DNA from: Halococcus salsus
GTDB lineage: Archaea; Halobacteriota; Halobacteria; Halobacteriales; Halococcaceae
Direction of reading: 5' to 3'
Assembly (NCBI RefSeq): GCF_009900715.1
Contig: NZ_JAAAJC010000005.1
Location: 62,001-126,000, forward strand
Length of the DNA stretch: 64,000 nt
Position numbers and translations under genes: made by a program. A model generated the notes under the pieces. That model ran no database searches. It was not told the origin of the DNA and saw only the letters and a program-made list of their open reading frames with translations. Of this stretch, positions 8,298 to 54,199 are shown in pieces; position 1 is the stretch's first letter; each line of letters begins with the position of its first letter.

Positions 8298-8707
8298 CGT
8301 CGCGAGTTACGGCCGCCCCGCAAAAAGCCGCGTGGTCCGCCGCGCGGCGGTCACGGTACGGGCGGCGCGGTGCGGCCGCCGTGCGGTTGTGGTCGGCGAT
8401 GCGGTGGCGGTGTGGCTGCGGTTCCTGGCGTCTCGGCGAGCGTTAGCGAGCCGAGGCTCAGGAGAGCTGTGCTCTCCTGACGGATGAAGGGCGGAGCGCT
8501 TGGTGTGAGCGAAGCGAACACCGCGAGCGGAGCGAGCGCGCGGAGGGCTTCAGCGGAGGCGGTAGCGGAGAGCGGTAGCGTCCGCGCGAACGGTGTGAGC
8601 GGGGTTCACCGTGAGCGCCGAAGGCGCGAGCGGGAGTTTTTAGTGCAGGTTTTTGCGAGGGGTTGAGCGCGAGCGCAGCGAGCGCGATGCCCCGAAGTAA
8701 AAAAGTG
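8298..8707. other. Gap filled by dispersed repeat, family I copy A
   Basis: These 410 bases upstream of nadK hold no protein gene that I can support. Most of the sequence (8370-8650) belongs to the repeat described separately, with a dense GAGCG/GCGAAG pattern. Confidence 0.6.
8370..8650 (+). repeat. Dispersed intergenic repeat, family I, copy A
   Basis: The block GTGCGGCCGCCGTGCGGTTG (8370-8389) recurs exactly at 45779-45798. The block 8482-8570 (starting GGATGAAGGGC, with TTGGTGTGAGCGAAGCGAAC inside) recurs, reversed and with about ten differences, at 54001-54088. A perfect hairpin TCAGGAGAGC-TGT-GCTCTCCTGA (8458-8480) lies between. No reading frame is conserved between copies, so the conservation is at DNA or RNA level. 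Confidence 0.7.
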
Positions 8708-31448: not shown

Positions 31449-33674
31449 TCAGAACTCCCCGAGGTTCGACTGGTCGTTCTCCCCCTCTCCGACGACCGCC
31501 ACCGAGCCGTCGGCCTCGACGTCGTCCATCGAGGGATCGGTTCGGCCCACGTTGTCGAGAACGTTCTCGGCGGTCTTGCGGCGGCCACGGAGCGCGCCCA
31601 GCACGACGGCCTTGTCGGCGTTCCGGAGGTCGGTCCGGGTCTCGATACCGGCCTCGTAGAGCCGGCGGGCCCGTTTGCGACCCACGCCGCGCACGCCCGC
31701 GAGGTCGATGAGTTCGGTGCGGATCCCGTTGGCGACCCTGGTCCGGGCCTCCCGTACGGCCGGAGCCCACTCCAAACCGAGCTCGCCCGCGAGTCGTTCG
31801 GCGGCCGACAGCAGCCACTCCGCGGTGTCGACCTTCCCTCGGAGGTCGCCCGGCCCCACGGAGTATCGGTCGGTGATCTCGCTCTCGTCGAGTTCGCTCG
31901 CCCAGTCTTCGAGCAGGCGGGCGGTCTTGAGCGCCGAGAGCCAGTCCTCCCAGCGGGCCTCGAACTCGCTGGGTTTCATCCCCAGGAGTTCGGTCTCGCG
32001 CTCGTTGGCGAGCATGGTGTACTCCTCGCGGTCGCCCGACCGGAGGTAGAGTTCGTACATGTCGGGCGTGCGGCTCACGAGGTGGAAGAGGCCGAGCGCA
32101 CTTGGCCGACTCTCGGCCGCCTGAAGCCCGTCGACGATCTCGGCGGCGCTCATCGGGTCGAGGTAGAGCCGCGAGACGGTGTGGCCCAGGGAGGTCGCGG
32201 TGAGGTCGTCGCCGTCGCGGTCGAGGAAGTCGTTGACTTCGAGGTAGTCGAGCATGTCGTCCGTGACGCGTTCGAGCCGCCCGCCCTCCGTCGTCTGCGT
32301 GGCGTAGAGCGTCTGGTCGAGGAACTCGAGCAGCCCCTCGCGTGAGCTCGCGAACCCCGAGGCCACGGTCGCGAGCAGATGCGTCCGCAGGGCGGGTTCG
32401 GCCGCGAGCTTCGAGCGCACGGCCTCGGGTTCGGTCCAGATGTATCGGTCGAAGAGTTCGTCGAGTTCGTCGTGGCTCTTCGCGAGCAGGAGCGCCTCGC
32501 CGTAGGGGTCCAATCCCGGTCGCCCCGCCCGGCCACACATCTGGTGGACTTCAAGTACGGAGAGCGGGGCCATCCCGCCGGCCTCACCCGAGTACCGCCG
32601 CCAGTCGCGCACCACGACCCGACGGCTCGGGGTGTTGACGCCCGCCGCGAGCGTCGGCGTGGCCGAGACCACCTTCAGGAGTCGGTCTCGGAACGCGCCC
32701 TCGACGAGTTCGCGGTGTTCGCTCGCGAGGCCGGCGTGGTGGAACGCGCCGCCGCGCTCGACCGCGCTCGCGAGGTCCTCACTGGTCTCGGTGTCGCTCA
32801 CGTCCCGGATCTCGGCCGCGACGCTCGCCAACTGGGTTCGCTCCTCGTTCGTGAGTTCGTTCTCGACCGTGCCGGCGAGCCGACGCGCCGCGGCCTCGGC
32901 GTTGCGCCGGGAGTTCACGAACACCAGCGTCGATCCGCCGTCATCCAAGGTATCGCGGACGATGGCCTCGGTGGCCTTCTCGCCGTCCCTGACCTGGAGT
33001 TCGCGCTGGTTGCCGTCCTCCAAGTGTACTGCCTGGCCGTAGTGGACGCCCTTCTTCAGGTCGATCGGTCGCCACGTCGAGTCGACGAGTTCGGCGTCGA
33101 GCCACTCGGCGAGGATCTCGGGGTTGCCGATGGTGGCCGAGAGCGCCACGACCTGCAGCCCCGGATTTCGCTGGCGGAGTTTCGCGAGGGTGACTTCGAG
33201 CGTCGGCCCCCGGTTCCCGTCGTCCACGAGGTGGACCTCGTCGGCCACCACACAGGACAGGTCGTCGAGCCACGGCGCGCCGTTTCGGACGAGCGAATCC
33301 ACCTTCTCGCTGGTCGCGACGATGATGTCACAGGTCGCGAGCCACTCGCCGTCCGAATCGTAGTTGCCAGTCGAAACGCCGACCGTGAGGCCGTACTGCT
33401 CGAAGGCCTCGAACTCGGTGCGTTTCTCGCCCGCGAGCGCGCGGAGCGGCACGATGTAGAGGGCGGTCCCGCCGCGCGCGACGCTCGCCGTCATCGCGAG
33501 CTCGGCGATCAGTGTCTTCCCGGAGGCCGTCGGCACGCTCGCCACGAGGCTCTCGCCCGCCGTGGCCCCCGCCTCGACCGCCTCGGCCTGGGGCGGGTAG
33601 AGTTCCTCGACGCCCTCGTCACGCAGGTGGTCGGGCAGCCACTCGGGCACTCCCGACAGTTCGGTGACGTTCAT
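31449..33674 (-). CDS. hel308: ATP-dependent DNA helicase Hel308
   Basis: The 741-residue Ski2-like helicase has motif I PTASGKT (48-54), DEVH box at 145-148, motif [12 protein letters not shown] near 178-187, motif [11 protein letters not shown] (near 388) and a C-terminal helix-hairpin-helix [20 protein letters not shown] (about 658-677), as expected for archaeal Hel308/Hjm, which unwinds forked DNA at stalled replication forks. Length fits and no motif is missing. It is upstream of cgi121. A TATA element lies 25-38 bases before the ATG. Confidence 0.95.
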
Positions 33675-33712: not shown

Positions 33713-33826
33713 CCGAGCGCGGCGAAAGTGAAAGAGTTCGGAGCACGAGGATGGGACTGAGCTTGAGAGGGAATTCAAAAGGCGAGTGGAGGACGAGCGA
33801 CAGCGAACCCGCAACGCGACCGCGCG

Positions 33827-34150
33827 AATCCCGGTGCAAACGAGAGACCGCCCCGCTCCCGCACGGCACCGCTCCCGCCCCGCGACGGCCACGAGCCTCC
33901 CCAGCCGACTGCGCTCCTCGTTCACTCCCGCCGGAAGAACTTCGCTCTTCCGTGCTCTCGTTCGCTCTTCCGTGCTCTCGTTCGCTCCCTCCGGTCGCTC
34001 ACGAGAACGCTGGTCGCTCACGAGAACGCTGGTCGCTCACGAGAACGCTGGTCGCTCACGAGAACGCTGGTCGCTCACTACGGTGCTCATCCCTCGCACG
34101 AGTGTCGCGGGCCGCCCGTCGGGCGGCCCGCAGGCCGCGCGCCGACCGCC
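33827..34150 (-). repeat. Dispersed repeat family II, copy C, with inserted module
   Basis: In reverse orientation this copy has GTGCGAGGGATGAGC (34085-34099), CGGCTGGGGAGGCTCGTGG (33890-33908) and GCGGTCTCTCGTTTGCACCG (33832-33851), matching copies B, E and G. Between the first two blocks it carries an extra 150-base segment (33931-34082) that holds a hairpin module otherwise found in family I copy D (46168-46229), a 20-base direct duplication and a 19-base tandem array. Confidence 0.7.
33946..34076 (+). repeat. Tandem repeats: 20 bp x2 and 19 bp x4
   Basis: A 20-base unit CGCTCTTCCGTGCTCTCGTT occurs twice in a row (about 33943-33982). Four copies of the 19-base unit CACGAGAACGCTGGTCGCT then follow head to tail up to 34076, with exact spacing of 19. 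The units are contiguous, with no spacers, so this is not a CRISPR array. Confidence 0.8.
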
Positions 34151-34235: not shown

Positions 34236-34478
34236 ATGCGAATCGAGTACGACCGCGACACCTGTATCGGGATGTTCCAGTGCGTCGCGGAGTGGGAGGG
34301 GTTCGAGCGCGACGAGGACGCCGGCAAGGCGGTCCTGGTCGACGGCGAGGAGCGCGATGACGACACCATCGTGCGCGAGATCCCCGCCGAGGCGGAACTC
34401 GACGCGAAGTTCGCGGCGCGGGTCTGTCCGGTGGACGCCATCGCGGTCTACGACGACGGCGAGCAGGTGATCCCCTGA
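34236..34478 (+). CDS. Ferredoxin, probably [3Fe-4S]
   Basis: The 80-residue acidic protein has TCIGMFQC (Cys10, Cys16) and VCPVDAI (Cys63) and no other cysteine. Three cysteines in C-x5-C...CP fit a single [3Fe-4S] cluster rather than [4Fe-4S], as in many archaeal and actinobacterial single-cluster ferredoxins. It probably carries electrons to an oxygenase or other partner, which is not evident nearby. The ATG at 34236 is preferred over the longer frame from 34188. Confidence 0.85.
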   Translation: MRIEYDRDTCIGMFQCVAEWEGFERDEDAGKAVLVDGEERDDDTIVREIPAEAELDAKFAARVCPVDAIAVYDDGEQVIP

Positions 34479-41672: not shown

Positions 41673-42626
41673 CTACATGTAGCCGAGGTCGCGCAGGCGC
41701 TCCATCAGCCCCTCCTTGTCCTGGGCGCGGCCCTCGCGCTCGGTGGAGCCCTCCAGGTCCTGAAGCCACGCGGGGCGCTCGCTGGACTTGCCCGACCCGG
41801 ATTCGGTCCCGAGCGAGCGAAAGCCCTCGAAGTACTTCGGGCTGACAGGGATGTCCTCGGCGGTGAGACCGTCGGGGAGGTCGTCGGTACTCTCGGGGAC
41901 GTGGCCGGCCGGGTAGCCCTCGACGGTGTCCGGGACGACGGCGTTCCAGAAGGCGTCCCAGACGTCCACCTCCTCGAACTGGAGGATGGGGTGGACCCGG
42001 TCGTGGGGCGGGTAGATCTCGGGGTCGTGGCGCGGGCTGAAGAAGGTCTCGCCGGCGCGGGCCTCCTGTTCGTCCCAGCGGACGCCCGAGAAGATCCCGT
42101 CGAACCCCGTGGATTCGAGGACCTCGTTCAGCGCCACCGTCTTCAGGAGGTGGTTGCCCTCGAACGAATCCGCATCCAGGGTGAGGGTGTCGCCTTCGTA
42201 GTCGATACGGTCGAGCTCGCGGCGGTTCGTCTCGCCGAGGTCCGAGAGCGGGATCTCGTCGCCTGGCTCGGCACCGAGACCGGCGATGGCCTCGTTGCGC
42301 GCGAATCGGAGGTCGAGGTCCCACTGCTCGGCCCAGCGCTCGGCGAACGCCATCACCTCGGGGAAGTGTTCGAAGTGGTCGATGAACACGACCGGCGGAA
42401 CGTCGATATCGCGCTCGCGCGCGACCTCTCGTACCACGTAGAGTACGAGCGTCGAGTCCTTCCCGCCGGTCCACATCACTGCGGGGTTCTCGTACTGGTC
42501 GAGCGCGGTCGCAGTCACGCTCGCGGCCTTTTCGAGTTTGTCCGAGAGGGTCGGGTACGCGCCCGCGTCGTGGTCGTCGCCGTCGGTGTAGTCCACGTCG
42601 AGGTACTCGGGGAACTGGTGGCTCAT
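41673..42626 (-). CDS. PAPS-reductase-like protein, paralogue 1
   Basis: The 317-residue protein has the PP-loop TGGKDST at 53-59 (in AVMWTGGKDSTLVLY) and a second family stretch FSGVRWDEQEARAGETFFSPRHDPEIYPPHDRVHPILQFEEVDVWDAFW (about residues 180-228), which resembles the CysD/PAPS-reductase superfamily of sulfonucleotide enzymes. It ends DKEGLMERLRDLGYM. It lacks the CysH redox C-terminal cysteine motif. The paralogue at 43422-44393 shares its whole plan. So an adenylylating or sulfur-transfer enzyme is likely, not necessarily assimilatory sulfate reduction. Confidence 0.82.
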   Translation of the reverse strand: MSHQFPEYLDVDYTDGDDHDAGAYPTLSDKLEKAASVTATALDQYENPAVMWTGGKDSTLVLYVVREVARERDIDVPPVVFIDHFEHFPEVMAFAERWAEQWDLDLRFARNEAIAGLGAEPGDEIPLSDLGETNRRELDRIDYEGDTLTLDADSFEGNHLLKTVALNEVLESTGFDGIFSGVRWDEQEARAGETFFSPRHDPEIYPPHDRVHPILQFEEVDVWDAFWNAVVPDTVEGYPAGHVPESTDDLPDGLTAEDIPVSPKYFEGFRSLGTESGSGKSSERPAWLQDLEGSTEREGRAQDKEGLMERLRDLGYM

Positions 42627-42769
42627 CGACGGCTCAAACGGGCACCGGGGTAATGTAGGTTTTCGCCGACGCGTGGCCGATGGGTGTGGGCTAGATCGAC
42701 AGGAGAACCGAAATCACGGTCTTCAGGTGGGCGGAACGGCTTTTTCCTCGGACGACCTCTGGGTGCATC

Positions 42770-42982
42770 GTGAGTACCACGACAGGCGGACGGCGTGTGA
42801 GCGGTAAAGCGGGCTACGAGTACAAGGTCGTCAAAGCGCCGACCAGCTTCTGGTGGTTTCGCATCGAGCGCGACGAGACCGAACGGCTGTTGAACGAGCT
42901 CGCGGCGGACGGGTGGGAGCTCGACGAGGCCGTCGTCAACTGGTGGGGCGGTGCCGAACTGTTCCTGCGCCGGTCGCGTTGA
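42770..42982 (+). CDS. DUF4177-type small protein, copy 1
   Basis: The 70-residue product has the signature YEYKVVKAPTSFWWF and LLNELAADGWELDEAVVNWWGG (about residues 45-66) typical of DUF4177, a small alpha/beta protein of unknown role, often found as regulator-like or membrane-adjacent product. Start is GTG at 42770, or the in-frame GTG at 42797 (SGKAGYEYKVV), which is the family's usual position. It lies between the two PAPS-reductase-like paralogues. Confidence 0.7.
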   Translation: MSTTTGGRRVSGKAGYEYKVVKAPTSFWWFRIERDETERLLNELAADGWELDEAVVNWWGGAELFLRRSR

Positions 42983-43094
42983 AGACGGTCCGTCGGTCCT
43001 TCGTTCGTTCCTCCGATTCGACTTCGCTGCTCAGCTATCCGCCGTGACCGAAGTGGGGTAATTCCCGAGGATGAACGCCGTGGCTCTCCCCTAC

Positions 43095-43280
43095 TTACGA
43101 CATCCGTTCTTCTCGTTCCGTCTCTTCGTTCTCGAGGAGTTCTTTTATCTCCTTGACGTCGTTCGATATCTGGAAGACCTTCACGATGGCGGCGATGACG
43201 ACGATGACGATCGCTATTTGAATCAGTAGCCACACCAATCCGAGAATCCCGAATATTTGGAGTTGCAACAGAGTAGACAT
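43095..43280 (-). CDS. Small single-pass membrane protein with coiled-coil tail
   Basis: The 61-residue product has one hydrophobic stretch (about residues 9-36: GILGLVWLLIQIAIVIVVI) and a charged, heptad-like tail (NDVKEIKELLENEETEREER). The shape recalls small membrane anchors or holin-like and phage-shock-type proteins. A TATA box lies at 43311-43325 on the minus strand. It lies between DUF4177 and the second PAPS-reductase-like gene. Function unknown. Confidence 0.65.
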   Translation of the reverse strand: MSTLLQLQIFGILGLVWLLIQIAIVIVVIAAIVKVFQISNDVKEIKELLENEETEREERMS

Positions 43281-43310
43281 GAGCATGCAGAACACGACCA
43301 TCGGGATAGG

Positions 43311-43325
43311 AATATACTTTGGGCG
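43311..43325 (-). promoter_or_regulatory. TATA element for the 61-residue gene
   Basis: On the minus strand CGCCCAAAGTATATT lies 31-45 bases before the ATG at 43280. Confidence 0.5.
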
Positions 43326-43421
43326 ACTCGGGCACTTCTTTTATATCACGTAGTGCGGCATACGAAAGAGCTGGATACACATCCGGAGCTACCGCGGTTG
43401 AAAGGGTGAGCTACCCGAACT

Positions 43422-44393
43422 TCACATGTAACCGAGGTCGCGCAGGCGCTCCATCAGGTCCTCCTTGTCTTGGGCGCGGCCGGCGCGTTCGGTCGTGTTG
43501 TCGAGATCCTGGAGCCAGGCGGGCGTGGACTCGGTCTTGTCGGTCGAGACCTCGCTGCCCAGCGAGCGGAAGCCCTCGAAGTACTTCGGGCTGACAGGGA
43601 TGTCCTCGTGGGTCAGGCCGTTCGGCAGGTCGTCGTAGTCCTGGGGCACGTAGCCCTCGTCGGGGTACTCCTCGACGGTCTCGGGCACGACGAAGTGCCA
43701 GAAGGTCTCCCAGACGTCGGCCTCGTCGAACTGCAGGATCGGCTGGATGCGGTCGTGGGGCGGGTAGATCTCGGGGTCGTGGCGCGGGCTGAAGAAGGTC
43801 TCGTCGGCGCGGGCCTCCTGTTCGTCCCAGCGGATGCCCGAGAGGATGCCGTCGATGTCGTACTCCTCGAGGGCGTCGTTGAGCGCCACGGTCTTGAGGA
43901 GGTGGTTGCCCACGTAGGTGTCGAGCAGGAACGGGAAGGTGTCCTCCTCGTACTCGAGGATGTCGCGGATGTGGTGCTGGTTGTGCTCGGAGAGCTCCGA
44001 GACCGGGATGTCGTCACCGGGTTCGATGTCGTTCTCCTCGACGTAGCGGCCGGCGTCGTCGTTGCGGGCGTAGACGACTTCGAGGTCCCACTCGTCGGCC
44101 CAGTGCTCGACGAAGTCGAACAGCTCGTCGAAGTGCTGGTAGTGGTCGATGAAGATCACGGGCGGGACGTCGAGGTCGAAGCGGTCGGCGACCTCCTTCA
44201 CGAAGTAGAGGGTGAGCGTCGAGTCCTTCCCGCCGGTCCACATCACGGAGGGGTTATCGTACTGTTCGAGACCGCGTCGGGTGACCTCGATCGCCTTCTC
44301 GATCTTGTCCTCTATCGTCGGGTAGTCCTCGGGGTCTTCACCTTCGCCGTCGGTGTAATCCACGTCGAGGTAGTCGGGGAACTCGGTTGCCAT
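43422..44393 (-). CDS. PAPS-reductase-like protein, paralogue 2
   Basis: The 323-residue protein has the PP-loop TGGKDST at 53-59, the same position as in the paralogue at 41673-42626. It has SGIRWDEQEARADETFFSPRHDPEIYPPHDRIQPILQFDEADVWETFW (about 187-235) and ends DKEDLMERLRDLGYM, as does its relative. Between them the two differ mainly in the middle (about residues 85-165). Retention of all catalytic-loop residues in both suggests two active enzymes. Start is ATG 44393, with a TATA-like ATTATATC at 44404-44412. Confidence 0.82.
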   Translation of the reverse strand: MATEFPDYLDVDYTDGEGEDPEDYPTIEDKIEKAIEVTRRGLEQYDNPSVMWTGGKDSTLTLYFVKEVADRFDLDVPPVIFIDHYQHFDELFDFVEHWADEWDLEVVYARNDDAGRYVEENDIEPGDDIPVSELSEHNQHHIRDILEYEEDTFPFLLDTYVGNHLLKTVALNDALEEYDIDGILSGIRWDEQEARADETFFSPRHDPEIYPPHDRIQPILQFDEADVWETFWHFVVPETVEEYPDEGYVPQDYDDLPNGLTHEDIPVSPKYFEGFRSLGSEVSTDKTESTPAWLQDLDNTTERAGRAQDKEDLMERLRDLGYM

Positions 44394-44553
44394 AGCGTAA
44401 TGAGATATAATTACGTCCATGAAAGGCGTTGCGGCTTCGCTTTCGAGTGTGACGTGATACCGCACACGATGGTCCCTCACAACGACCGACGGGAATGGTC
44501 GCCCACTGAGTATGTCGAGCAAAATCGGGCCGCTCGGTCACCGAGTTGCCCTC

Positions 44554-44742
44554 TCAGCGTCGCGTGGCGCGGTACTCGCCGTGCTGGACGCCGACGAACA
44601 GGGTGACAATGCCGAAGACCAGCAGGCCGCCGAGCACCATCCCGACCGTCGAGGCGGTCATCGGGCTCATGAACGTGCCGATGGCGATGATCGCGAACAA
44701 CACCACGAATATCCCGGCCGTCTTCGGGAGGTCGAACTCCAT
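44554..44742 (-). CDS. Small two-helix membrane protein
   Basis: The 62-residue product starts MEFDLPKTAGIFVVLFAII and has two hydrophobic segments (about residues 9-28 and 31-53) ending in GEYRATRR. I recall a haloarchaeal family with this start (DUF7333), not verified. It is between the second PAPS-reductase-like gene and the aldo-keto reductase, all on the minus strand. No function known. Confidence 0.6.
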   Translation of the reverse strand: MEFDLPKTAGIFVVLFAIIAIGTFMSPMTASTVGMVLGGLLVFGIVTLFVGVQHGEYRATRR

Positions 44743-44799: not shown

Positions 44800-45630
44800 C
44801 TACCAGGGGGAGTCGTCGGGGTCGACCTGGCGCTCGACGGTGTCGATCCCGTCGATGGTCTCGACGTCCTCGTCGTCGAGGTCGAGGTGCAGGGACTCCC
44901 AGTTGTCGCGGATGTGCTCCTCGCTCGTGGCCTTCGGGATCACGGTGACGCCCTTCTCGCGGAGCCACGCGAGACTGACCTGGGCCTCGCTCGCGTCGTG
45001 TTTCTCGGCGACCTCGCTTATCTCGTCGACGTCGAAGACCTTCCCGCGCGCGAGCGGGGAGTACGCGACGAGTTCGATGTCGTGTTCGTCGCAGTACTCC
45101 CGAAGTTCCTCTTGGGGGAGGAGGGGGTTCATCTCGACCTGGTTCGCGAAGATCGGTTCGTCGAGGATCTCCCGTGCCTCGTCGAGGTGCTCGGGCTCGA
45201 AGTTCGAGACGCCGATGTGGTCGATGAGGCCCTCGTCGACGAGTTCCTCGAAGGCCGGGAGGGTCTCTTCGGGTTCGTACGTGTTCTGCGGCCAGTGGAT
45301 GTAGAGCAGGTCGACCGAATCGACGCCAAGTTTGTCGAGGCTCTCGTGGGTCGAGTCGATGACGTCGTCGTGCGCGAGGTTCTCGGTCCAGACCTTCGTG
45401 GCGAGGAAGAACTCCTCGCGGTCGAGGTCGGCCTGTTCGATGCCGTCGCCGACGCTGTCCTCGTTGCCGTAGGCCTGGGCGGTGTCGATATGGCGATAGC
45501 CCATGTCGAGGGCGGTTCGGACGCTCTCGGCACACGCCTCGGGGTCCTCGTTCTCCCAGGTGCCGAGCCCGAAGGTCGGCATCCCGCTGGCTCGCTCGAC
45601 GCTCTCCGACGTGAGTTCCTCTTGAGACAT
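44800..45630 (-). CDS. Aldo/keto reductase
   Basis: The 276-residue NADPH-dependent reductase has MGYRHIDTAQAYGNEDSVGDG with Asp49 and Tyr54, the catalytic Lys in FFLATKVW (near 77), and HWP at about 111 for the tetrad. The C-terminal SPLARGKV and VIPKATSEEHIRDN motifs bind NADPH. It reduces an aldehyde or ketone; the natural substrate is unknown. The start at 45630 is preferred; an upstream frame is antisense to repeats. Confidence 0.9.
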   Translation of the reverse strand: MSQEELTSESVERASGMPTFGLGTWENEDPEACAESVRTALDMGYRHIDTAQAYGNEDSVGDGIEQADLDREEFFLATKVWTENLAHDDVIDSTHESLDKLGVDSVDLLYIHWPQNTYEPEETLPAFEELVDEGLIDHIGVSNFEPEHLDEAREILDEPIFANQVEMNPLLPQEELREYCDEHDIELVAYSPLARGKVFDVDEISEVAEKHDASEAQVSLAWLREKGVTVIPKATSEEHIRDNWESLHLDLDDEDVETIDGIDTVERQVDPDDSPW

Positions 45631-45907
45631 ACACGCAGGACAACGGGCGACAGTTGAAAAGCGGTTGTGAAACCGGCGAATGGAACTGGTTCGTGTGCGT
45701 GTCATGCCCTCTCTCGCACGATCTCGGGCGGTGGAGGGTCGCCACGATCGAGCGGACGGTGACGGAGCGGTGGGTTCGGTGCGGCCGCCGTGCGGTTGCG
45801 GTGCAGGCCTGGTGGATGAAGGGCGAACGAGCGGTGCGAGGCACGAGCAACGCGAGCGCCTCGATGCGAACGGCGAACGGGGCGTGGCCGACCACTGGGA
45901 GGTGGTT

Positions 45908-46007
45908 CGAAAATCTCCGATTTTCGTCACTGAGCGGAGCGAAGCTCCGCGAGGTCCAAAAGAGTCGGAGACTCTTTTGACGATCACGAGAGAGCTTTGC
46001 TCTCTCG
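45908..46007 (+). repeat. Array of four perfect hairpins with three-base loops
   Basis: CGAAAATC-TCC-GATTTTCG (45908-45926), GCGGAGC-GAA-GCTCCGC (45934-45950), CAAAAGAGTC-GGA-GACTCTTTTG (45957-45979) and CGAGAGAGC-TTT-GCTCTCTCG (45987-46007). Stems are 7-10 perfect pairs and follow one another at 7-8-base spacing. A fifth, CGGAAGAGC-GAA-GCTCTTCCG (46207-46227), lies in the inserted module. Confidence 0.8.
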
Positions 46008-46167
46008 AACGACCACGAGGCGAACGGCGACCGCAGGAAGCCGTGAGCGAAGTGAGCCGTGAGCGGAGCGACTGAGGGCTTCGGCGGAGGCGGTACTGAG
46101 CGGTCGCGGAGAAGTCAGCGTTTGCACCGCGAACGAGCGGAGCGAGTGAGCGGGCCGACGACTGACC

Positions 46168-46229
46168 GCAGTTCTCGTGAGCGACCAGAGGGAGCGAACG
46201 AGAGCACGGAAGAGCGAAGCTCTTCCGGT
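46168..46229 (+). repeat. About 60-base hairpin module inserted in copy D
   Basis: Copy F (53837-54090, reversed) runs straight from the GACTGACC block to the GGGAAGGAGG block. Copy D has about 60 extra bases between them, with the hairpin CGGAAGAGC-GAA-GCTCTTCCG at 46207-46227. The same sequence (reversed, slightly changed) is found inside family II copy C (33931-34010). It looks like a small mobile or recombining module. Confidence 0.7.
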
Positions 46230-46312
46230 GGGAAGGAGGAAGCTTTTGATCCACATTTTGCCAGCGAGCCGAAGGCGAGCGCAGCAAAAGGTGGGGCGTA
46301 AACGGTGGGGGC

Positions 46313-46696
46313 CTAGTGTTCGACCAGTTCCACGAGCACCCCACCCGTCGACTTCGGGTGGAGAAACGCCACCTCGTGGCCCCACGCGCCGGGTCGCGGG
46401 TCGGTGTCGATCGGCTCGACGCCGTGGTCGACGACCCGGTCGAGCGTCGCCCGGATATCGTCGGTGGCGAGCGCGAGATGGTGGATGCCCGGTCCATTGG
46501 AGTCGAGATAGCGCGCGATGGTGCCGTCGTCTTCGGGTTCGAGGAGTTCGAAATAGCCGTTTCCGCAGTCGAGAAAGACGACGGTCATCCCATCGACGGT
46601 CTCCTCGTGGACGACCGGGGTGTCGAAGAGGATCGAGAAGCGGTCGGCGAGGCCGCTGGCGTCGTCGGTCGCGATGCCGGCGTGGTCGAAGTTCAC
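46313..46696 (-). CDS. mce: Methylmalonyl-CoA epimerase
   Basis: The 127-residue glyoxalase-fold protein interconverts (R)- and (S)-methylmalonyl-CoA. Metal ligands are His5 (MNFDHAGIA), Glu51 (FELLEPE) and His74 ([11 protein letters not shown]), with the final Glu in LVELVEH. Start is GTG 46696, overlapping the mutase stop in GTGA, so the pair is coupled. Length is normal. Confidence 0.92.
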
Positions 46697-53796: not shown

Positions 53797-54199
53797 AGCA
53801 GGCCACTCACGGCCACACGGTTTTACTTCTCCGGCTCCACCTTTTGCTGCGGTCGCTCGTTCGCCTTCGGCTCACTCGCTCCCTGGCAAAATGTGGATCA
53901 AAAGCCTCCTCCTTCCCGTTGGTCAGTCGTCGGCCCGCTCACTCGCGCTTCGCGCTTATTCGCGGTACGATCACTCACAGCTCCGCAATCACCCCGCACC
54001 GCGACCGCCTCCGCCGAAGCCCTCGCCGCGCTCACTTCGTTCGCGGTGTTCGCTTCGCTCACACCAAGCGCCTCGCCCTTCATCCGCCAGGCCCACGACC
54101 GTACCACAACAGCCGTCGCACCCGCTCCGCGACCGCAGGCCGCACCGCCCGTCGGCGGACGACGGCCGGGCTTTTAGTCACCGGTTCCCAAGGGGTGAT
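53797..54199. other. Gap of 403 bases with repeat family I copy F
   Basis: It lies between two divergent genes and holds no protein gene that I can support. Most is the repeat below. The end (54185-54199) carries AAGGGGTGAT, a possible Shine-Dalgarno for the CinA-like gene. Confidence 0.55.
53837..54090 (-). repeat. Dispersed intergenic repeat, family I, copy F
   Basis: Reversed relative to copies A and D. 54001-54088 matches copy A 8482-8570; 53837-53945 matches copy D 46141-46167 plus 46230-46290, including CAAAATGTGGATCAAAAGC (53887-53905). It lacks the 60-base module of D. Confidence 0.75.

Follow-up and report, generated by a model that had tools for sequence, protein, structure and literature searches.

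A putative mobile double-hairpin DNA element nested in the intergenic repeats of Halobacteriales

The short hairpin module carried by a repeat element of Halococcus salsus is probably a non-autonomous mobile DNA element of about 50–59 bp, built of two adjacent hairpins with fixed linkers, which would be moved as a folded single strand by a host enzyme or another candidate enzyme, the arms being copied from each other and the host repeats remaining passive. This unit, here called DHE2, follows the plan N-C-(H1, 9–10 bp stem, 3-nt loop)-WGC-(H2, 6 bp stem, loop most often TCGCTTCGCTC)-AC, measures 50–59 bp and contains no gene, and its architecture is constant among the units gathered from H. 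salsus, from its congeners and from further families of the order. As judged from aligned sequences, DHE2 was shown to be a discrete unit that inserts next to C with a target duplication of at most one ambiguous base.

Copies in the window and distribution in the order

The window, that is, the whole stretch of 64,000 nucleotides that was analysed, belongs to a 3.52-Mb draft genome (G000), and the genus sample comprised 10 genomes. Three DHE2 copies are present in the window, in repeat elements D, C and B. Elements D, F and B form one repeat family and C belongs to another; each family has about 40 scored places in the genome, and both are mosaics with sub-blocks in common. The unit copies were scored with R2, a covariance model built from 21 DHE2 units. 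The features are as follows.

8430–8481, minus strand: third DHE2 copy, in element B (R2 match of 55.9 bits; H1 TCAGGAGAGC/GCTCTCCTGA, H2 CTCGGC/GCCGAG)
33790–34150: element C of repeat family II, flanked by a helicase gene (31449–33674, minus strand) and a ferredoxin-like gene (34236–34478, plus strand)
33930–34008, plus strand: DHE2 copy in C (R2 match 33931–34008, E = 1.4e-8), enlarged by a 20-bp duplication at 33941–33980; predicted empty site CTCCC^GCTGGTCGCTC
33993–34078, plus strand: 19-bp tandem array, GGTCGCTCACGAGAACGCT repeated 4.5 times, running across the right-hand boundary of the C copy into the adjoining sequence
45740–46300: family I repeat element D, which hosts the module, between AKR (44800–45630, minus strand) and mce (46313–46696, minus strand)
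45908–46013: four tight hairpins with 3-nt loops in D (45908–45926, 45934–45950, 45957–45979 and 45987–46007)
46171–46229, minus strand: DHE2 copy in D (R2 match of 68.9 bits, E = 6e-12); predicted empty site, on the minus strand, CTTCCC^TGCGGTCAG
46229 and 46228, minus strand: N and C of the D copy, followed by H1 (46207–46227, stem of 9 bp, minus-strand loop TTC)
46204–46206, minus strand: linker TGC of the D copy
46198–46203 with 46173–46178, minus strand: H2 stem of the D copy, enclosing the loop 46179–46197
46171–46172, minus strand: terminal AC of the D copy
53834–54190: element F of repeat family I, which has no DHE2 and lies upstream of cinA (54200, plus strand)

The preliminary description had noted about 60 bases in D that are absent from F at the corresponding place, and nearly the same bases, reversed, in C, expanded there by a 20-base duplication and a 19-base sequence repeated four times. 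These observations hold. The 62 bases at 46168–46229 were confirmed, the true unit within them being 46171–46229. The minus strand of C matches the D module at 98% identity over 48 nt (33961–34008, E = 4.6e-19) and at 97% over a further 37 nt (33931–33967). The hairpin of D, CGGAAGAGC-GAA-GCTCTTCCG (46207–46227), corresponds in C to a hairpin with one mispair (CGGAAGAAC/GCTCTTCCG). In C, the 20-bp duplication at 33941–33980 is exact, the 19-bp sequence forms an array of four at 33993–34068 plus one partial copy, and collapsing these duplications gives back a D-type unit. Because the microhomology GGTCGCTCAC is common to both sides of the array, slippage or unequal recombination may have acted in C after insertion. 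The D and C copies have in common an unusual H2 loop of 19 nt, which suggests that both descend from one recent source, slippage having then enlarged the copy in C. A module moving between the two families, as proposed earlier, is not what the flanks indicate: they differ between D and C, as if two closely related copies had inserted independently at sites of one kind. Nor is the module confined to these two places, since a search of the genome with the module alone returned 24 matches at E ≤ 1e-4, and the window itself holds the third copy at 8430–8481, which had been overlooked.

Hairpins of this kind are more frequent than chance would give. Perfect hairpins with a 3-nt loop and a stem of at least 9 bp number six in the window; 200 dinucleotide shuffles gave 0.9, and at most 6. 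Element D has five with a stem of at least 7 bp versus 0.05 expected (maximum 1 in 500 shuffles). The excess is limited to long, tight hairpins; for stems of at least 7 bp and loops of 3–5 nt, no excess was found in the window (37 versus 32 ± 5).

Beyond this genome, R2 at a cut-off of E ≤ 1e-3 found DHE2 in 254 of the 293 genomes examined from Halobacteriales and in 72 of the 87 genera, with many genomes carrying near 20 or at least 20 copies. A sample drawn from the whole phylum gave matches in 16 of its 19 Halobacteriales genomes; the other 101 genomes, from outside the order, had no match and double as a negative control. The closest named relatives of the mce protein are from Halobacteriales, and loci around mce in named genomes gave two DHE2 matches. 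Elsewhere in the window (41675–44606), two neighbouring paralogous reading frames lie 1.75 kb apart, are 77–88% identical in blocks and look like a tandem gene duplication.

Filled and empty sites, insertion target and host repeats

Syntenic counterparts in the closest sister genome, G007, were present for all 12 of the module-bearing or related loci tested. Between loci L249 and L366, a DHE2 of 51 bp is present in one and absent from the other, the exact orthologous empty site in G007 being CTCATC^CCTCGCAC; L262 and L365 differ likewise by a 51-bp DHE2 at the exact empty site AAAAACCT^GGACTAAAAA, and the flanks are nearly identical in both pairs. The first pair differs, in addition, by a 58-bp unit of another type, DHE1 (TCGTT-H1-TGATGA-H2-AACCA), present or absent at GCGAAG^CGTCTTCCG, which sits inside the hairpin CGGAAGACGC-GAA-GCGTCTTCCG. 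Yet another double hairpin behaves in the same way at L227/L373 (62 versus 2 bp), and a 134-bp composite at L212 lies exactly at CCC^GATGGTC, the sequence that G007 has. At the orthologous empty sites, the target duplication amounts to 0 bp or one ambiguous C. On sequence grounds, sites of this kind, empty in a relative, prove that DHE2 copies either inserted or were excised exactly; at any single locus, an exact loss in G007 would look identical. The earlier view of the module as a small insertion by a tiny palindromic mobile element is borne out by these exact empty sites of other copies.

The target follows a simple rule. The base preceding the unit is C at all 88 sites with distinct flanks, and CC at 65 of them. 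Units with the AGC linker mostly follow TCC, and those with the TGC linker (T subtype) lie at the 5′ edge of hairpin triloops: the mean triloop stem at T-subtype sites is 2.29 bp versus 0.06 and 0.71 bp when the loop is shifted by one base, so that elements nest inside elements. In other species, units are found within hairpin loops (GCATCCC^TTCGGGATGC and GCATCCC^TCCGGGATGC) and within tRNA 3′-end fragments, of which intact (empty) duplicates occur at the same locus.

Several haloarchaea have tandem tRNA 3′-end fragments (GGTTCAAATCC...CCCA) interleaved with hairpin sequences (L295, L297, L310, L311, L317 and L344); where a tRNA was found, these fragments lie downstream of intact tRNA-Val and tRNA-Gln genes. 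A disruption of tRNA genes by the units beside GGTTCAAATCC was considered and rejected, because Aragorn finds no tRNA even with the unit removed; the sequences are 3′ fragments.

In G007, a single family I element joins mce and cinA, and AKR together with a complete D-like element is located about 36 kb from the mce–cinA junction. Judged by this gene order, D and F are chimeric junctions of rearrangements relative to G007, with the breakpoints inside the elements. Synteny breaks at window positions 46300 and 53834 and, in G007, at C9:66571–66889, C10:3484–3665 and C10:43477. One simple inversion was rejected, since AKR lies about 36 kb away and the G007 order is not obtained; two element-to-element inversions would turn one gene order into the other. 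F had been taken for a sister copy of D from which the module is missing. The absence itself stands, whereas the reading of F as the empty sister site of D was ruled out by the synteny with G007, because recombination breakpoints provide no valid empty site. The D insertion, being situated at a rearrangement junction, cannot be polarised: this insertion occurs in neither G007 ortholog of its flanks, being absent on the AKR side, while the mce-side ortholog has a DHE2 of separate origin, placed elsewhere (AAAAGCC^CGCGTCACC). The module is missing, too, from the G007 ortholog of C, where the entire variable loop is different.

The last two of the four tight hairpins in D fit the DHE1 model (R1 match 45952–46013). 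The cassette holding the four hairpins (window 45837–46080) is near-identical to its G007 ortholog, the rest of that element being far more diverged, and occurs in G007 in about 10 copies of 90–99% identity (C41:56681, C43:34059, C9:1420 and others), several with internal duplications; by these comparisons, it is a recently expanding sub-element. The ends of family I (e.g., window 46255–46300) are conserved as a block, CCACCTTTTGC-loop-GCAAAATGTGGATCAAAAGC, within which many different nested hairpins replace one another as the loop in the various copies.

Double-hairpin units are also of more than one type. DHE1 units (56–60 bp; L224, L240, L249, L251, L259, L265, L091, L093, L096, L103 and L166) come from several genera; most have G^CG as their insertion site, with no duplication, and their stems covary fully. 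A third type, TCATC-H-tgtgccA-H-GATGA, is present in G000 (L227, 540–740), absent at the G007 orthologous site L373, and found again at L285 and L286.

Stem covariation and candidate movers

The stems vary in a strictly paired manner. In an alignment of 13 DHE1 sequences picked by their linkers only, 182 of 182 stem cells are paired, and in DHE2 the same is true of 99.1% of 316 cells, where H1 in part of the sample was chosen by stem pattern, which inflates H1 pairing, and H2, like all of DHE1, was not. The two alignments together have 71 cells that deviate from the commonest pair; every one of them is changed on both sides, none on one side, and none is a G-U pair. Such two-sided changes exceed those of all 500 shuffles and far exceed those of slid controls, the pairing falling to 25–56% when the partner is slid by one to three columns. 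A larger set of 89 units, for which four of the six H2 pairs were required, gave 1315 Watson-Crick pairs, 3 G-U pairs and 22 others among 1340 cells; thus, G-U makes up 3 of the 25 non-Watson-Crick cells, about the rate of random mispairs.

Covariation in stems is a classical sign of RNA structure, and RNA structures normally pass through G-U pairs. If the hairpins were kept for a role in RNA, be it as a small RNA, as a terminator or as an intermediate that is copied into DNA again, the strong covariation and the intergenic location would be expected; this explanation is very unlikely, given that G-U pairs are absent from both alignments and number only 3 among the 1340 cells of the larger set, that the Rfam covariance models gave no match even at a relaxed threshold, and that many copies lie within other repeats or between divergent genes. 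Complete covariation with neither one-sided changes nor G-U pairs in the two alignments points instead to maintenance at the DNA level, for which copying from arm to arm would be the simplest account. In the orthologous copies L230/L364, the differences are confined to loop and junction bases, and no stem rewriting is seen. Alternatively, the hairpins might have been born on site by template-switch (quasi-palindrome) mutation, with nothing moving, as the diverse perfect stems with 3-nt loops throughout the elements, and the loops in both orientations (GAA and TTC), might suggest. However, the linkers WGC and AC and the H2 loop of DHE2, and TCGTT, TGATGA and AACCA of DHE1, are conserved across families of the order, which indicates shared ancestry of the units and makes such a birth a highly improbable explanation. 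Template switching is largely refuted as the origin of the units and is plausible as a process that keeps the arms matched.

What moves the element is a separate matter. A Y1 HUH transposase acting in trans on a single-stranded double hairpin, of the REP/RAYT or IS200/IS605 type and as proposed for REPINs and PATEs, would fit the anatomy: two hairpins, no target duplication, a defined left target base and an ssDNA-like dependence on structure. Haloarchaea do have PATEs derived from IS605 (PMC3119063), and Y1_Tnp is present in the H. salsus genome and in 186 of the 293 Halobacteriales genomes. The H. salsus genome, however, encodes a single Y1 (IS200-type) transposase, which adjoins a TnpB-like reading frame and is thus IS605-like; no DHE2 lies beside it, there being no R2 match within 3.4 kb of this one IS605-like TnpA, and no RAYT was found, this being the sole Y1 match in the genome. 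Across the order, 163 of the 254 genomes that have DHE2 also carry Y1, as do 23 of the 39 genomes lacking DHE2 (p = 0.59), a test weakened by incomplete genomes and fossil copies. Y1 is absent from 91 DHE2-bearing genomes, among them two from the genus of H. salsus: G008 (99% complete, 18 copies) and G003 (97%, at least 20 copies). Since the presence of Y1 is unrelated to that of DHE2 and no DHE2 accompanies the Y1 gene, the RAYT- or IS200-type mover suggested in the preliminary description is not supported and a Y1 enzyme appears unlikely, although an ancestral or divergent RAYT-like mover could have operated. It could also be supposed that no transposition took place and that homologous recombination and gene conversion among repeat elements shuffled the sub-modules. 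D and F are rearrangement breakpoints relative to G007, and the orthologous loci of C, L206, L240 and L251 differ by replacement of the whole variable loop and not by clean insertion. As a full explanation, this is quite unlikely, because it does not fit the clean insertions of 51 and 58 bp between otherwise nearly identical flanks, the units in unrelated surroundings such as tRNA 3′ fragments, or the unit boundaries that stay constant across many genera. Recombination probably acts in addition, spreading loops together with the units in them.

A feasible model is that DHE2 moves as a folded single DNA strand, for which lagging-strand or repair intermediates would be natural sources, and that a host enzyme or another one, recognising the shape and the linkers and not the stem sequence, places it at a nick or in a hairpin loop. 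With every move or afterwards, one arm would be copied from the other through hairpin-templated repair or template switching, which would keep the arms complementary. The host repeat families would serve as passive landing sites and as substrates for recombination, and no cellular function would be required to explain the element.

Relation to known elements and significance

By analogy, the nearest described behaviour is that of the SMR-A repeats of Haloquadratum walsbyi, which have no transposase, make no target duplication and prefer the palindromes of other repeats, and whose mobilisation was called enigmatic (PMC3119063). DHE2 resembles them in its haloarchaeal host, the lack of a transposase and of target duplication, and insertion inside palindromes (the T subtype at triloops, and one DHE1 in a hairpin). 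By contrast, SMR-A repeats measure about 110 bp, end in prominent inverted repeats and have PATE/IS605 palindromes as their targets (PMC3119063), whereas DHE2 spans 50–59 bp without such repeats, has two side-by-side hairpins with hypervariable covarying stems and is distributed order-wide. In anatomy, DHE2 is nearest to the mitochondrial double-hairpin elements and to REPINs. The former, known from fungi and sponges (Paquin et al., 2000, as cited in PMC2800124), are described there as tiny, gene-less and intergenic, with two adjacent hairpins, evidence of mobility and a mechanism that is unknown; the two adjacent hairpins and the presence or absence between relatives are alike, a likeness by description with no homology claimed, and those elements, unlike DHE2, reside in organelle genomes. 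REPINs or BIMEs are likewise mobile units of two hairpins, occur in high copy number between genes, and have been proposed to parallel IS200/IS605 chemistry; in REPs, the stem sequence is conserved, the tag is GTAG or CGTC, and a RAYT gene is linked (PMC3116915). DHE2 shares the two-hairpin mobile unit and lacks the RAYT and the constant tag, which is found in none of 89 units, all starting with N-C and a variable stem; unlike in REPs, the stems vary freely and the linkers are conserved. PATEs, IS605-derived elements of haloarchaea, have palindromes and neither a transposase nor a target duplication, in which they agree with DHE2, and carry IS605 end sequences near both termini (PMC3119063); at the one IS605-like locus examined, in the H. 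salsus genome only, there was no R2 match. Compared with MITEs, DHE2 has neither terminal inverted repeats, its ends being N-C...AC, nor a target-site duplication (0 bp or one ambiguous C). The cyanobacterial SDR, very small mobile repeats, are said to be hairpins of about 24 nt inside other repeats, with compensatory stem changes, and would differ from DHE2 in being single, bacterial and unrelated in sequence. Haloarchaea are not mentioned in the available passages of a REP survey that includes archaea (PMC12306157), and no description of DHE elements in haloarchaea was found in the open literature (subscription papers being outside the scope). Lacking defining features of REPINs, MITEs and SMR-A, DHE2 is classed as a new variant among tiny non-autonomous palindromic mobile elements.

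It is tempting to speculate, tentatively, that DHE2 belongs to an order-wide class of ultra-small archaeal mobile DNA that is defined by shape, with fixed linkers and insertion site, stems rewritten arm from arm and a hairpin-recognising mover other than an IS200/RAYT transposase. DHE1, DHE2 and the third type would lie nested within each other as well as within tRNA 3′ fragments, and would thereby build the GAGCGA-rich intergenic repeats of haloarchaea.

These results provide a sequence definition, unit boundaries, a target rule and a species distribution for a class of elements in the repetitive intergenic DNA of most haloarchaea sampled. With exact pairs of empty and filled sites in sister species, the movement of gene-less hairpin elements, such as fungal DHEs, cyanobacterial SDRs and Haloquadratum SMRs, becomes testable in tractable hosts, e.g., Haloferax. 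Two alignments without a single one-sided stem change form an unusual natural record, which suggests arm-to-arm copying at DNA hairpins, and the host repeats double as points of genome rearrangement.
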